A stretch of 6,222 nt of DNA. It comes from Methanobacteriota archaeon. Lineage in GTDB: Archaea; Hydrothermarchaeota; Hydrothermarchaeia; Hydrothermarchaeales; BMS3B. Shown here piece after piece: positions 313 to 5,582 of this stretch. The stretch lies in NCBI GenBank assembly GCA_013152995.1, contig JAADFH010000028.1, positions 1-6,222 of the forward strand. Direction: 5' to 3'. The notes beneath the pieces are model-generated. The model saw only the letters and a list, made by a program, of their open reading frames with translations. It had not been told where the DNA came from and made no database searches. How positions within the stretch are numbered: the first letter of the stretch is position 1; every line of letters starts with the position of its first letter. Position numbers and translations under genes: made by a program.

Positions 313-803
313 CTAAACCCTCACCAGCTCAACCTCAAGCGTGTCGCCGAACTCTGCTACAGCCACGCTCGGCATTGAGCCCCTGGGATTCGTCGGGCTG
401 CCTGGGTTCAGGATTCTCACACCGCCCATCTCCAGCACCGCCGGGCGGTGCGTGTGTCCGGTAACCACAACATCGCACCGCTGCTCCTTGGCAAAAGGTA
501 CGCCAGCTTTGCCGCATCACCCCTCGGGTATATCCCGCTCCCATGGAACAGCAGCACCCTGTGCCCGCCAAGGCTAAGCCTCCGCCTCTCCGGCAGCGAG
601 GTGCCATAGTAGGGGTCCATGTTCCCCTGCACCGCCACCACCTCAGCCACCTCCTCCAGAGCATCAACCACATCCATGGAGGTAAGGTCGCCCGCATGCA
701 GAATCAGCTCAACCCCGCTGCTCCTGAAGACCTCCAGCACCTTAGCTGGCAGCCCTCCAGCTCTGTCATACACGTGGGTGTCGCTTATGATTCCCACACG
801 CAT
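313..803 (-). pseudogene. MJ0936/YfcE-type metallophosphoesterase, interrupted by a frameshift
   Basis: The first 103 codons (from ATG at 803) carry the calcineurin-like phosphoesterase motifs in order: DTH at residues 8-10, GD at 38-39, GNMD at 60-63 and HG at 87-88. The last motifs, GHTHRP and NPGSPTNPRG, are present but in another frame, which ends at TAG 313-315. The switch lies at an A run on the plus strand (493-496): one extra base, or two fewer, restores a 162-163 residue protein, the usual size of this family. Such enzymes bind two metal ions and cleave phosphodiesters or phosphomonoesters in the cytoplasm; the natural substrate is unknown. Without the GHTH motif the 0-frame product should be inactive. 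The gene follows the radical SAM gene by 32 nt and is probably last in the operon. A GTG at 824 is a possible earlier start, but MRVGIISDTH is the family N-terminus. Either a true recent inactivation or a homopolymer sequencing error is possible. Confidence 0.85.
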
Positions 804-835: not shown

Positions 836-2311
836 TCAGCCACGTGCATAGCTCCTCTGCATGCTCTCCCTGTAGTGCTCCGGCAGCACATTGAAGGCGC
901 AGAAGGGTATAGCCTTAAGGTCGGGGGTAACGTAGTGGATGGCGCACCTCTTCACCCTGGCTATGTCATAGTTGTACAGGTCCATGAAGTGCATCATCCC
1001 TATGAACAGGCTGGAATGGTGGAACCTCGCAAGAGCTCTGTAGTCGTGCCTCACTATCGCATTGAAGAGCAGCGCATGCACCTTCAGCCCCTGCGGCGCA
1101 GCCCTCGCATCCACAAACCTCCTTATGCCAGCGAGAATCCTGAGCCTCTCAACCATTCCTGCGCTCTCAAGCCTCACAGCAGACTCATTCAGGTACTCCA
1201 GCAACCCCTCAATATCCACAAACCTGGTAATCGGCACCAGCCTCTGCCCATCAAGGAACACGTACGTAGCCATCCCGCATGCAAAGTGCGTGCTGAGCTC
1301 GTACTGCGGCTTTCCCGTGAGCGCCTCAACCACGTGCGAGAGTGCGGTGATGCTGGGCACAGGGTAGAAGTCGTACCTTGAAACCTCGCCCGAGGTCTGC
1401 TCCTCCAGCGCAAGTATCACGTCCGGGATAGTAACCCTGTGCCTGAGCCTCTCCTCCCTGGGCATCCTGCCCACAAGCGAAACCGGCTGGAAGTTCACAC
1501 CCCTAACAGCATCAATGTTGCTGGAGGCAAAGCGCAGTATCTCCCCCAGCTCGTGCATATTCCTGCTCCTTATCACCGTGGGCACCAGCACCAGCTTCAT
1601 CCCCGCATACCTTGCGCTCTCCAGAATCTTGGGCATGTGGCGGTGGTTCTTCTGGTTCGTCTCCGGAGTTACGCCGTCAAAACTCAGGTACACTGTGCCA
1701 GCCCCAGCCTCTGCTATCTGCCTTGCAAGCTCCCTGTTCTCAGCCAGCCGTATGCCGTTGGTGTTGAGCTGCACGTGCCCGAAGCCGAGCCGCTTCGCAA
1801 GCTTGACTATCTCCACTATGTCCTCCCTCAGTGTGGGCTCGCCGCCTGTTAGCTGGAGCGCATTGCACGGCACAGGCTTCTGGCTGCGCAGGTAGCGCAG
1901 CATCCTCTCAATATCCGCAAGCGAGGGCTCGTACACATAGCCCACACGCTCAGAATAGTAGAAGCAGTACCAGCATGAGAGATTGCAGCGGTTGGTCACA
2001 ACGAGGTTCGCCAGAGCTGTGTGAGAGAGATGAGCCTCACACGGACCGCAGGAGAAGGGGCACAGCTCAAGCTTCGTCCTGGGATTCTCAAACCTCTTGC
2101 CATCATGCGCGTACCGCCTTGCGCGCTCATACAGCTCATAGCTGCTCCAGTAGAGGTCCTCAAACTCCCCGTGCTCGGAGCAGCGCTTGCGTATGTACAC
2201 CTTCCCTCCCCTCTCAAACACCTCTGCCCTCAGCACCCTGAGGCACTCCGGGCAGAGTGAAGAAGTATTCTCAAGCAGCCTCTCCCTTACCTGAAACCTC
2301 ACCTCCTGCAT
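836..2311 (-). CDS. tes: Tetraether lipid synthase (Tes/MJ0619-like radical SAM protein)
   Basis: A radical SAM enzyme of 491 residues. Family knowledge: Tes (MJ0619 and Methanosarcina homologues) joins the phytanyl chain ends of archaeol-type lipids by carbon-carbon bond formation, giving macrocyclic archaeol or tetraethers (GDGT) at the membrane. The sequence shows the radical SAM motif CxxxCxxC at Cys109, 113 and 116, followed by WYCFYY, a GGEP motif at 156-159 and NTNG near 183-186. Extra cysteines match the auxiliary metal sites of the family: CPEC at 20-23, Cys44, CPFSCGPC at 84-91, and C-terminal Cys345, 456 and 471, the last two in RCAIHY and IPFCAFN. ATG 2311 is chosen because GGAGGTG at 2318-2324 lies 6 nt before it; the earlier GTG at 2320 is part of that binding site. 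The start overlaps the end of the upstream gene by 41 nt. It lacks a B12-binding domain, so it is not of the GrsA/GrsB ring-forming type. Family assignment is strong; the exact lipid product is inferred. Confidence 0.88.
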   Translation of the reverse strand: MQEVRFQVRERLLENTSSLCPECLRVLRAEVFERGGKVYIRKRCSEHGEFEDLYWSSYELYERARRYAHDGKRFENPRTKLELCPFSCGPCEAHLSHTALANLVVTNRCNLSCWYCFYYSERVGYVYEPSLADIERMLRYLRSQKPVPCNALQLTGGEPTLREDIVEIVKLAKRLGFGHVQLNTNGIRLAENRELARQIAEAGAGTVYLSFDGVTPETNQKNHRHMPKILESARYAGMKLVLVPTVIRSRNMHELGEILRFASSNIDAVRGVNFQPVSLVGRMPREERLRHRVTIPDVILALEEQTSGEVSRYDFYPVPSITALSHVVEALTGKPQYELSTHFACGMATYVFLDGQRLVPITRFVDIEGLLEYLNESAVRLESAGMVERLRILAGIRRFVDARAAPQGLKVHALLFNAIVRHDYRALARFHHSSLFIGMMHFMDLYNYDIARVKRCAIHYVTPDLKAIPFCAFNVLPEHYRESMQRSYARG

Positions 2312-3554
2312 TTCTAACACCTCCTCTCGCCTGGTACAGCCTCAGCAGTGCAACCGCATTCGCAAGCACCGCAATCACCAGGAGAGTCTGCTGCACCGCC
2401 CCCAGCAGTCCGCCCAGGAAGATTATAAAAAGCCTCATATCCCGCTGCATCAGCCTGCCTGCAGCGCCCACTGGAATGCGGTACAGCTCATGCTTTGCGG
2501 AGGTGTAGCTTATTGAGTAGCAGCCTGCAATTGCGAGCACGCCCACCAGCCAGTTCTGGAGCGGTGCGCTGGCAATCATGCCAGCTATAACAGCAATATC
2601 CGCATACCTGTCCAGCAGGGAGTCAAAGTACCCGCCAAACCTTGAGGCTCTGCCCCTGAGCCTCGCCACCTCGCCATCGCAGCCATCAATCACCGACGCA
2701 GCCTGCGCGAGCACGCCTCCAAGCGCGGGCTTTGCAAGCGCAAACCCGATGCCGGAGGCTATGCACAGCACGAAGCTGAAGACAGAGATGGCGTTCGGGC
2801 TCACGGGAGTGTTAACAAGCGCTCTGCTTATAGGCACAGAGAGCCTGCGGTTCAGGTGCCTGGAGACGTAGCCATCGCTGGGCTTCACCAGCATCCCGAG
2901 CATCTCCCGCTCAGCCTGCCTCAGCTCCTCCTGCGTATCTATGTCCCGCCAGTAGCACCCGCTCACATCCAGCGCCCTCAGCCTGCCCTCAGAGGCAAGC
3001 TTCAGCATCACATCAGTCACCGAGAACCTGCCGCTGAACCCTGAGGCAGCCTCAAGCACCTCCTGCGTGCAGTAGAACACACCTGTGTCCAAGGCGTTGA
3101 ACCGCTCTATCCCCTTGCCCATGTCCACCACAACATCAGAATCCACCAGCACCCTGGTTGCCTCGTCTATGTCCTTGCCCTCAAGCACCGTATCTATGCA
3201 CAGCGTGGTGCACTCCGGCTCCGACTCAACCAGCTTCAGGAGAATCTCCCTGTCAAACACGTGGTCGCTCATCACGAGGATGAATCCCTCGCCCTCCACC
3301 GCTCTGGCACCGAGCAGCAGCGAGTAGCCACCGCCTCTCTCAACCTCCGTGTTCCTGACAACCCTCGCCCTGCCCGAGACGTGCCTCTCAACCTCTGGGT
3401 GACTGCACACCACAACAATCTCAGATACCCCTGCGCTCCGCAGGTTCTCAATAACCCTGTCAATCAGCGCCACGCCAAAGAGCTTAACAAGAGGTTTTGG
3501 GGTGGAGGAGCGAAGTCTCTCGCCCCTGCCTGCAGCAAGCACCACCGCCTTCAT
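2271..3554 (-). CDS. Bifunctional inositol-1-P cytidylyltransferase / di-myo-inositol-phosphate-phosphate synthase (IPCT-DIPPS)
   Basis: A 427-residue fusion. The N-terminal half (about 1-225) is a sugar-nucleotidyltransferase fold: LAAGRGERL at 6-14, PKPLVKL at 19-25, MSDH with Asp97 as likely metal ligand, and RDIDT at 203-207. It should form CDP-inositol from CTP and inositol-1-phosphate. The C-terminal half (about 226-410) is a membrane CDP-alcohol phosphotransferase with the full signature: Asp290, Asp293, Gly294, Ala297, Arg298, Gly307, Asp311 and Asp315, plus several hydrophobic helices (about 254-272, 317-350, 374-405). In the Archaeoglobus fulgidus enzyme of this architecture the second domain joins CDP-inositol to inositol-1-phosphate, giving phosphorylated di-myo-inositol phosphate, the precursor of the thermoprotectant DIP. 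Length matches that family. Its ATG overlaps the stop of inositol-1-phosphate synthase (ATGA at 3551-3554), so the substrate-making and substrate-using genes are translationally coupled; no strong binding site precedes the ATG. The second domain could alternatively make an inositol phospholipid, but the fusion argues for DIP. Confidence 0.9.
2318..2324 (-). promoter_or_regulatory. Ribosome binding site deciding the radical SAM start
   Basis: GGAGGTG on the minus strand, 6 nt before ATG 2311. It lies inside the C-terminal coding part of the upstream gene, and its last three bases are the alternative GTG start at 2320, which is therefore unlikely to be used. Confidence 0.75.
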
Positions 3555-4654
3555 CGCTCGTTGACGGCAATCTCCGGAGCAATGGTCGTGCGTGAATTCT
3601 CTGCGATGAACTCCTCCACCAGCTTCTTAGCCACAACATCAGGATACTGCACCGGCGGGTGCTTGAAGAAGTATGCGCTCACGCCCTCCAGCGGCCCTGC
3701 AATGCCGTTGTCCAGCGCGAGCTTCACCGCCCTTATCGCATCAACCGCAACACCTGCGCTGTTCGGCGAGTCCTCCACCGACAGGTGCACCTGTATGGTG
3801 AGCGGCACATCGCCGAACTTCTTGCCCTTGACGTATATGAACGCCTGCTTGTTGTCATTCAGGAAGGGCACATAGTCGCTGGGACCTATGCGTGTGGGTA
3901 TGTCGTAGCCCACCACGCTGGTAACCGCCTCAGTCTTGCTTATTCGCTTTGACTTCAGCCTGCTCTCCTGCAGCATGTTCAGGAAGTCGGTGTTGCCGCC
4001 GATGTTGAGCTGATAGGTCTCAACGATCTCAACGCCCCTGTCCTTCAGCAGCTGCATCAGCGTTCTGTGCAGTATCGTCGCACCCACCTGGCTCTTTATG
4101 TCGTCGCCAGCCACGGGCAGCCCTGCGCGTGTGAACTTCTCAGCCCAGTGCTTGTCGCTGGCTATGAACTCGGGGATGCAGTTCACAAAGCCGCAGCCGG
4201 CGTCAATGGCAGCCTGCGCGTAGTACCTGGTAGCCTCTGCGCTGCCCACCGGCAGGAAGTTCACCAGCACATCAGCCTTGACCTCCTCCAGCACCTCTGC
4301 CACATCCACGGGCTCCTCGTCGCTCAGCGGGAACGCCTCCCTGAGGTACTTGCCCACACCGTCAAGCGTCGGACCCCTGAGCACCTCCACGCCCAGCTCC
4401 GGCACATCGCAGAACTTCAGTGCGCAGTTGGGCTCTGCGAATATCGCCTCGCTCAGGTCCTTGCCCACCTTGTTTGCATTCACGTCAAAGGCTGCGACGA
4501 ACTTTATGTCCCTGATGTGGTAGCCACCGAAGTTCACGTGCATTAACCCTGGTACCGACTCCCCATCCTCAACATCCTTGTAGTACTCAACCCCCTGCAC
4601 CAAGGAGGATGTGCAGTTTCCCACACCTGCTATTGCCACTCTCACTTCGCCCAT
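3551..4654 (-). CDS. ino1: Myo-inositol-1-phosphate synthase
   Basis: A 367-residue cytoplasmic NAD-dependent enzyme that converts glucose-6-phosphate to inositol-1-phosphate (EC 5.5.1.4), the first step towards all inositol compounds. Visible family motifs are the N-terminal NAD-binding [15 protein letters not shown] (7-21), PGLMHV (35-40), GPTLDG (94-99), [11 protein letters not shown] (183-193), [12 protein letters not shown] (216-227) and DSPNSAG (295-301). The overall pattern and length are close to the short actinobacterial type (Mycobacterium tuberculosis Ino1) and differ from my recollection of the structurally studied Archaeoglobus enzyme. ATG 4654 is chosen because GGAGGTGAT at 4658-4666 lies directly before it; a start 13 codons earlier has no such support. 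It follows the regulator gene by 28 nt and overlaps the next gene by four bases, so it supplies that gene's substrate from the same transcript. Both catalytic blocks look intact. Confidence 0.95.
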
Positions 4655-4682: not shown

Positions 4683-5246
4683 CTACCTCTCACCGGTGTG
4701 TGAAGAGGTTAGCCTGAGAAGCAGAGGCTCCTCAGAGCCGTAGAGGTCAAGCTCGCTCATCGTCTGGCTCTTGAGCACTCTGACTTCCTCAAGCAGGTCC
4801 TCAACCCTCGCCAGACACTCCTCATGGTACTCCCTCTCCCTGATCAGCTCCTCGGCTATCTCCGAGAGTGCGGACAGCCTGCTCACAGGGTCACGGATGC
4901 GGAAGGCGTGCCTGGCTAACCTCCCGGCAGGCTCAGAGGAGCCAGCCGGACGGCTGGAGCGTCTGCTGAGCTTGGTGGAGAACTCGGTGGGTGAGATGTT
5001 GACTCTCAGCGTTATGGCGTCAGCTATCTCGTAGTACTTCCTGGGTCTGCCCCTGCTGTTGCGCTCCTCCTCCACTGTGAGTATCTTTGCCCGTGTCATG
5101 TACTCCAGATGCCTTGAGAGCGCCATCTTCTCCACACCCGTCTCCCTGCTCAGCTCTGACAGACACCTGGGCTTCTGACTTACCAGTCTGATAATCTCAC
5201 GCCTGGTACTGTTGCCCAGGATGTCCAGAAGCTCATCACTGCGCAT
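4683..5246 (-). CDS. ArsR-type winged-helix transcriptional regulator
   Basis: A 187-residue protein with an N-terminal winged helix-turn-helix (about 4-74): [17 protein letters not shown] forms the first helices, [23 protein letters not shown] the helix-turn-helix, and [10 protein letters not shown] (65-74) the basic wing typical of archaeal ArsR-like regulators. After [12 protein letters not shown] comes a short low-complexity linker rich in R, S, P, A and G (about 95-112), then a charged, probably coiled-coil helix (about 124-162) likely used for dimerisation. This layout resembles SurR-type archaeal regulators, but no CxxC redox switch is seen. No ligand domain is recognised. As the gene directly before the inositol and lipid genes, it is a good candidate for controlling them and itself. 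ATG 5246 is preferred: it starts at the conserved [12 protein letters not shown]. An in-frame TTG at 5282 would add 12 residues with no homology or binding site. Confidence 0.85.
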
Positions 5247-5263
5247 TTTTCTACTTTGTGTTA

Positions 5264-5274
5264 CCTTAAGTATC
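5264..5274 (-). promoter_or_regulatory. Possible internal TATA box for a leaderless regulator transcript
   Basis: GATACTTAAGG on the minus strand is centred about 24 nt before ATG 5246. In archaea a TATA element at this distance would place transcription start at or very near the ATG. The lack of a good ribosome binding site before this ATG, unlike its neighbours, fits a leaderless message. The match to a TATA consensus is modest, and co-transcription with the upstream small gene is equally possible. Confidence 0.3.
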
Positions 5275-5285
5275 AATTGCAAGTT

Positions 5286-5522
5286 TTACTGTACAGACCT
5301 CTCACGGTAGTCATCATAGCCCAGCCAGGCTATCACCGCTCCGGTGAGCAGCAGCATCACGCCGAAGAGCGCTGCGAACACCAGCAGGAACGCACGCCAG
5401 AAGGGCACCACTCCTCCCGAGCCGAGCACATCGCTCAGCACCGGCACCCTCACAAAGTACCAGAGGATGCCGAGCAGCACGAGCACTACACCGGAGACCA
5501 TTTTAAGTATCTCCCTGCTCAT
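5286..5522 (-). CDS. Small membrane protein with two helices, function unknown
   Basis: A 78-residue protein with two predicted membrane helices (about 8-26 and 44-67) joined by a short, glycine-containing loop with few charges. The positively charged ends (MSREILK and the C-terminal YRER) suggest both termini lie in the cytoplasm. I recognise the general pattern of small archaeal membrane proteins but no named family. ATG 5522 is chosen because GGAGGTGA at 5525-5532 lies 2 nt before it; an upstream in-frame start at 5582 would add 20 residues lying in the AT-rich promoter region. The stop is 39 nt before the regulator start, so the two may be co-transcribed, and it could be a membrane partner of the regulator or simply the first operon gene. 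Confidence 0.75.
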   Translation of the reverse strand: MSREILKMVSGVVLVLLGILWYFVRVPVLSDVLGSGGVVPFWRAFLLVFAALFGVMLLLTGAVIAWLGYDDYRERSVQ

Positions 5523-5524
5523 GC

Positions 5525-5532
5525 TCACCTCC
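5525..5532 (-). promoter_or_regulatory. Ribosome binding site of the small membrane protein
   Basis: GGAGGTGA on the minus strand (within GGAGGAGGTGAGC), 2 nt before ATG 5522. It decides the start against the longer open frame reaching 5582. Confidence 0.7.
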
Positions 5533-5544
5533 TCCAGTGAAAGT

Positions 5545-5582
5545 ATTCGGGTAATAACAACAGAAAATTTTTTAATAACCAC
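5545..5582 (-). promoter_or_regulatory. Probable operon promoter (minus strand)
   Basis: The minus strand reads GGTTATTAAAAAATTTTC at 5563-5580, a TATA-like AT-rich block. A start about 25 nt downstream would fall near 5547, giving a leader of roughly 25 nt that contains the ribosome binding site of the first gene. Two near-identical 10-mers on the plus strand, TAATAACAAC at 5552-5561 and TAATAACCAC at 5573-5582, flank the T run with their starts 21 bp apart, and a perfect 9-mer repeat adjoins the block. These could be operator sites. No experiment supports them. Confidence 0.4.

Follow-up and report, generated by a model that had tools for sequence, protein, structure and literature searches.

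A distinct tetraether synthase paralogue ends a predicted di-myo-inositol-phosphate operon with a Phr-like regulator in two genera of Hydrothermarchaeota

Gene-level control of the archaeal tetraether/diether ratio by temperature has, to our knowledge, been little described. Here we describe a conserved gene block in which a tetraether synthase paralogue lies behind a Phr-like regulator and the genes for the predicted synthesis of di-myo-inositol phosphate (DIP), an arrangement that offers a defined promoter and motif with which to approach this question. The DNA analysed, called the window below, is the whole of contig C28 (6222 bases) from an archaeal metagenome-assembled genome of the Hydrothermarchaeota, with a bin of 827 kb that is 62% complete; the names Candidatus Hydrothermarchaeota, Hydrothermarchaeales and Candidatus Pyrohabitans appear on its relatives. 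Read along the minus strand, the window encodes a hydrophobic open reading frame (ORF) of 98 aa, a Phr-like regulator, inositol-1-phosphate synthase (IPS), a fused CTP:inositol-1-phosphate cytidylyltransferase / di-myo-inositol-phosphate-phosphate synthase (IPCT-DIPPS, or DIPPS for short), the tetraether lipid synthase Tes, and a YfcE-type phosphoesterase (Table 1). A first-pass annotation of this DNA had recognized the three genes from IPS to Tes, their head-to-tail order and their overlaps of 4 and 41 nt, all correctly, and had proposed that they form a heat-adaptation module; the unit extends further than was thought, as the regulator and the hydrophobic ORF at its front had been omitted.

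Table 1. Features of the window, in minus-strand reading order.
Feature	Position	Strand	Remarks
Small membrane-protein-like gene	5286..5582	-	98 aa, hydrophobic; opens the conserved block; membrane nature predicted from sequence
Conserved motif, candidate operator	5247..5268	-	TAAGGTAACACAAAGTAGAAAA, 22 nt, directly before the regulator ATG
Phr-like ArsR-family transcription regulator	4683..5246	-	187 aa from ATG 5246; ORF open from 5282
Inositol-1-phosphate synthase (IPS), DIPPS-associated paralogue	3551..4654	-	PDB, Pfam, tree
Fused IPCT-DIPPS	2271..3554	-	4mnd, PF12804, PF01066
Tes-type radical SAM tetraether lipid synthase, DIP-linked paralogue Tes-A	836..2311	-	491 aa; NF045702, 7tol
YfcE-type phosphoesterase gene	316-803	-	directly behind Tes; two frames, change near 495

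The IPS and DIPPS genes overlap in a shared ATGA. The Tes start that carries a ribosome site (GGAGGTG) is the ATG at 2311, which gives the 41-nt overlap with DIPPS; the longest possible Tes ORF would begin at GTG 2320. The regulator lies 28 nt upstream of IPS. A Pfam scan of the 98-aa ORF gave no family above cut-off, and an Rfam scan of the window found no RNA at gathering scores.

The last gene of the DIP block, which we call Tes-A, passes the curated model NF045702 for tetraether lipid synthase Tes (684.2 bits, cut-off 450) and matches PDB 7tol with E=3e-134. Its predicted structural model (mean pLDDT 83), based on an alignment of 20 sequences, superimposes on the solved synthase GDGT-MAS (MJ0619, 7tom) with a TM score of 0.91 and 43% identity in the structural alignment. 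All 16 of the checked ligand and active-site positions are kept, comprising the rubredoxin iron ligands, those of the N-terminal, radical SAM and C-terminal clusters, and Met439 and Tyr459; the rubredoxin-site and N-cluster ligands and the latter two residues are named in the accessible part of PMC9433317, and the C-cluster cysteines we infer from the alignment. Tes-A is therefore a predicted tetraether synthase, with a predicted biphytanyl chain product, that is, a glycerol dialkyl glycerol tetraether, a glycerol trialkyl glycerol tetraether or macrocyclic archaeol. It differs from MJ0619 in having a short C-terminus, in lying behind solute genes and in being a second, clade-distinct paralogue. 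Because the window genome also carries a second, unlinked Tes (Tes-B), the linked gene is an extra copy and not the only tetraether synthase of the genome. In a tree of 73 Tes proteins the DIP-linked copies form one clade (bootstrap 100, SH-aLRT 99), nearest to which, from outside, are the metagenomic proteins P0131 and P0132, and the unlinked Tes-B groups in another clade (100/100) with the Tes of genus g2, which has two Tes, both of B type, and with that of genome G015. Since the two clades lie apart, Tes-A may have been acquired or anciently duplicated, either origin being possible, and later placed behind DIPPS.

The solute genes are likewise recognizable. The IPS matches PDB 1gr0 (E=2e-137) and PF01658 (119 bits), and in the IPS tree the DIPPS-linked proteins form a clade separate from a second IPS. 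The IPCT-DIPPS aligns over residues 1-405 with the fused enzyme of PDB 4mnd (E=1.7e-60), contains a cytidylyltransferase domain (PF12804, 77 bits) and a CDP-alcohol phosphotransferase domain (PF01066, 51 bits), and thus qualifies as a full-length fusion; the DGxDGExxR...G...D...D residues are invariant among 21 sequences.

Searches for DIPPS, Tes and IPS covered all 23 genomes of our sample of the phylum. DIPPS is matched over at least 395 of its 427 residues in 16 of them, and in 8 Tes lies directly behind it, namely in genus g1 (G000, G003, G004) and genus g3 (G005-G009). These eight, which are all the sampled genomes of the two genera, share the order regulator-IPS-DIPPS-Tes, and each has the hydrophobic ORF and the regulator in front (tblastn places the ORF directly 5' of the regulator in 7/7 other linked genomes). 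The linkage, whose absence from related genomes the first-pass annotation had named among the refuting results, thus holds in all sampled genomes of both genera, amid flanks rearranged between them. IPS and DIPPS are spaced by -4 to +4 nt in seven of the eight, G007 being excluded for an IPS in two frames. The spacing between DIPPS and Tes is -41, -41, -32, +4, +14, +12 and -32 nt in the seven measurable genomes (all but G005, whose Tes is interrupted; the contig of G004 stops within Tes), and all measured junctions from the regulator to Tes are overlaps or gaps of at most 85 nt. A ribosome site precedes Tes in 7/7, of GGAGGTG type and in G008 GGGGGTG. Chance does not explain the arrangement, since seven more genomes show the same order with similarly tight spacing. 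Shorter versions occur elsewhere in the phylum: G012 and G015 have the regulator, IPS and DIPPS but no Tes, the G012 contig stopping about 0.65 kb past DIPPS, and G001, G002, G010 and G016 have just the IPS-DIPPS pair. A weak Tes-like match near the DIPPS of G015 was set aside, as it exceeds the cut-off of the model for the peptide-modifying CbpB and not that for Tes.

Recent ancestry alone does not account for this synteny. The two genera cluster together in the Tes-B and IPS trees, and their DIPPS proteins are 55-57% identical. A comparison of the available flanking stretches (ORFs of at least 80 aa) found zero gene families in common between g1 and g3 on either side of the block, and downstream of Tes the flanks differ even among g3 genomes. 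As a control, the neighbours of the unlinked Tes-B were compared in the same two genera, and again no family was common to both. Since the flanks of the block and of Tes-B both differ, the block has outlasted a general loss of gene order around itself and around the control gene.

Outside the phylum the solute gene pair recurs without the synthase. Among GTDB loci with DIPPS, of which the best 80 of at least 547 were examined, 53 have an IPS match in the flank, on the same strand in 52, so that the enzymes and their pairing are those of the window; a full-length Tes stands beside them in three only, all from Hydrothermarchaeota (G003, G006 and G007), and three further loci have just a weak radical SAM match. 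Two larger samples were then compared by eye from the listed gene positions, a procedure in which short contigs weaken any absence. The first, 392 genomes of the phylum to which a Methanophagales genome belongs, yielded DIPPS matches (E<=1e-35) in 76, all of which were searched for Tes; it is present in 73 and in none within 10 kb of DIPPS, the closest being 10.5 kb away on the opposite strand (G143). The second, 398 genomes of the phylum to which a Bathyarchaeota genome belongs, has 44 with a DIPPS match, several in one domain only; 39 of these genomes have Tes, none linked, the closest at 9.6 kb on the opposite strand (G651). Six other archaeal genomes all have Tes, in none within the available DIPPS flanks. 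Linkage was thus not found in 118 other archaeal genomes with both genes (73 + 39 + 6), a weak negative since many of the assemblies are fragmented. The association of Tes with IPCT-DIPPS, for which a search across archaea had been suggested, accordingly stands for two Hydrothermarchaeota genera, and a general archaeal linkage, of which the samples of two other phyla gave no sign, was rejected.

The regulator (PF01022, 38.7 bits, cut-off 22) has as its closest solved structure PDB 2p4w (E=1.4e-18), which we take to be the P. furiosus heat regulator Phr. It precedes IPS-DIPPS at 10 loci, and just 5' of its ATG lies an imperfect GTAAC-N5-GTRGA motif. The pattern is exact in the 8 linked genomes and has one mismatch in G012, always before the regulator, and was not found within one mismatch at the G015 locus; it is thus conserved at 9 of the 10 loci, and its GTAAC half at 10/10. 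Between genera, the 25 bases before the regulator ATG are 75% identical and the next three 25-base blocks 26-28%. No ribosome site precedes the ATG, so the regulator transcript is likely leaderless. Phr of P. furiosus and HSR1 of A. fulgidus belong to the same ArsR-type family, and the window regulator resembles them further in the conserved motif just before its own start codon, a candidate for a site overlapping its transcription start. According to the portion of a review that was accessible (PMC9133787), HSR1 is autoregulatory at CTAAC-N5-GTTAG, which the window motif resembles in its left half and spacing, and the Phr site is TTTA/TGGTAA/AAAA. We considered whether the motif marks a global heat-shock regulon and rejected this: elsewhere in the 23 genomes there are two stray matches with one mismatch, within the level of a backwards control (5 hits in 3 genomes). 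As the motif is otherwise confined to this operon, the regulator would be local rather than global. In g3 the gap between regulator and IPS holds an inverted repeat, TGTGCCTC...GAGGCACA in G005 (L192) and shorter in G009 (L196), possibly a second control site.

A link to heat is suggested by the distribution of reverse gyrase, which scores above cut-off in 10 of the 23 genomes: 7 of the 8 linked ones, 0 of the 12 others in the order, and three more members of the class, G020-G022. In the remaining linked genome, G003, the search found a topoisomerase fragment only. By Fisher's test, reverse gyrase and linkage go together within the order (p=0.0001), across the 23 genomes (p=0.006) and among those members of the order that are at least 90% complete (p=0.015); these p values overstate the evidence because the genomes are related. 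Among cultured archaea, IPS of P. furiosus is induced in heat shock (log2 fold change 4.0; available portion of PMC10746257), and the tetraether proportion climbs with growth temperature (as given in the accessible text of PMC8941075).

Taken together, we consider it on balance probable, if only just, that a distinct second Tes paralogue ends a predicted and likely heat-switched DIP operon, coupling DIP formation to extra tetraether synthesis; the regulation, transcription and products of the operon we infer from sequence. The regulator would bind the motif between the TATA box and the start codon, repress its own leaderless transcript together with the genes behind it, and release on heating. 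IPS and DIPPS would then produce DIP, which would stabilize proteins, and Tes-A would supplement the tetraether capacity of the unlinked Tes-B, with a higher tetraether/diether ratio and a tighter membrane as the outcome, so that a single switch would likely reinforce the cell interior and the membrane together. The heat-adaptation module of the first-pass annotation gains from the Phr-like regulator, the conserved motif and the association with reverse gyrase, and is narrowed by a linkage seen only in two genera. The accessible literature that was searched holds no description of a gene unit joining a compatible solute to membrane-spanning lipids, in agreement with the earlier impression that the unit had gone undescribed. 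The setting differs in Methanosarcina acetivorans, where the accessible text of PMC8941075 places MA_1486 next to a ferredoxin needed by geranylgeranyl reductase.

Several findings weigh against a heat-switched DIP and tetraether operon. The regulator misses the Phr cut-off (NF053602, 80.4 vs 320 bits) and is hence termed Phr-like rather than classed as Phr. The IPCT-DIPPS reaches 304 bits against the equivalog cut-off of 580 of NF041135, a Thermococcales model that 7 of 8 other archaeal DIPPS pass (582-658 bits), including one of the A. sulfaticallidus genome, while the eighth, which comes from the second phylum sample, fails at 227 bits; the IPS, with 506 bits, stays below the cut-off of 638 of TIGR03450, a mycothiol-type model. 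Because both enzymes fall short in this way, DIP as their joint product is a prediction. In g3 the regulator and IPS stand 50-85 nt apart, which leaves space for another promoter, and at this locus g2, the sister genus, carries the IPS-DIPPS pair with neither regulator nor Tes. The linked Tes of G005 (L192:11260-12571) is split by about 1.1 kb of extra sequence, with the unlinked Tes remaining in that genome. An intein was considered here, since a curated intein-Tes model exists, and rejected in favour of an interruption, as the added sequence contains a hydrophobic ORF of 330 aa that matches no Pfam family and the parts of Tes lie in different frames. A g3-like Tes-A without adjacent DIPPS was found in G351 (L206, G351:C185), on a contig binned to another phylum; that contig shares the gene adjoining Tes with G009, and it is probably misbinned, so we do not count it as a case from another phylum. 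The reverse-gyrase counts are not independent, as the linked genera group together and a single event may lie behind them; reverse gyrase is also present in the unlinked G020-G022, and 3 of the 12 unlinked genomes of the order are only 57-62% complete. Cold stress was accompanied by a rise of tes in Saccharolobus islandicus (accessible part of PMC10465181). Finally, IPCT-DIPPS homologues, often with IPS, are frequent in uncultured bacteria (Desulfobacterales, Gammaproteobacteria, Planctomycetota and others), groups that are not obviously thermophilic; IPCT-DIPPS alone therefore does not imply hyperthermophily, and DIP-type solutes may reach far beyond thermophiles.

Such findings leave room for other explanations. 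The operon could be regulated by a signal other than heat, such as a small molecule, salt, redox or growth phase, with DIP and tetraethers forming a general response of envelope and solutes. Ligand sensing is common among ArsR-family proteins, this one is only distantly Phr-like, and a second Phr-like paralogue (at least 59 bits), present elsewhere in 17 of the 23 genomes, may be the true heat regulator; the bacterial homologues just mentioned fit this explanation as well. We nevertheless hold it unlikely, in view of the structural match to the presumed Phr, the heat induction of IPS in P. furiosus and the coincidence of linkage with reverse gyrase. It is rather improbable that Tes-A is a passive hitchhiker, a gene that landed once behind DIPPS and stays there by borrowing its promoter, its product being physiologically uncoordinated with DIP. 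One insertion event accounts for all linked genomes in the Tes tree, and the broken copy of G005 and the unlinked one of G351 would suit such a gene; yet the order was kept while DIPPS diverged to 55-57% identity between genera and while every neighbour outside the block, like those of the Tes-B control, ceased to be shared.

A link through inositol lipids, in which IPS supplies archaetidylinositol head groups, Tes-A uses inositol-bearing diethers and DIP is a side product, seems distinctly improbable. Making CDP-inositol requires the fused cytidylyltransferase, whereas transferring a head group from CDP-archaeol does not, and other genomes keep a separate IPS clade, in G010 about 0.4 kb from a CDP-alcohol phosphotransferase, for which reason the linked IPS looks specific to DIP. 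What speaks for the lipid link is that G004, although 99% complete, shows one IPS only, which may serve both pathways, and that NF040950, the model for archaetidylinositol-phosphate synthase, gives the DIPPS half 118 bits against a cut-off of 180.

The G010 locus, which has neither Tes nor regulator, carries a different radical SAM/SPASM gene (L197:12261-13640) that overlaps DIPPS by 29 nt. A 53%-identical homologue in g2 (L170:5046-6443 of G001; also G002) follows a Tes at a distance of 4 nt. This is a broad family that extends to bacteria, and the G010 protein matches the NirJ2 and AhbD models below their cut-offs. Its structural model (mean pLDDT 85) comprises N-terminal helices, a radical SAM domain, two bridging helices with a hairpin, and a SPASM domain, which is the domain order described for the glycerol monoalkyl glycerol tetraether (GMGT) synthase Gms in the accessible text of PMC11186832. 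The comparison, made with the description and without the Gms sequence, also brings out differences: Gms has six N-terminal helices and the G010 model five, the first at low confidence, and the Cys pair C370/C372 of Gms has no evident counterpart. From the model, the genes in G010 and g2 are possibly GMGT-synthase-like. If the G010 enzyme is Gms-like, DIP genes and tetraether enzymes have been joined twice. A still broader idea, that the Hydrothermarchaeota DIP operon is a docking site for tetraether radical SAM enzymes (Tes, and the GMGT-synthase-like one in G010) under one thermoprotection switch with a Phr-family repressor, strikes us as doubtful.

The YfcE-type phosphoesterase gene that follows Tes in the window has a frame change that is either real or an assembly error. 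The gene is also found behind Tes in G003, a position in which it was seen in genus g1 alone, and it could be the missing phosphatase for di-myo-inositol-phosphate phosphate.

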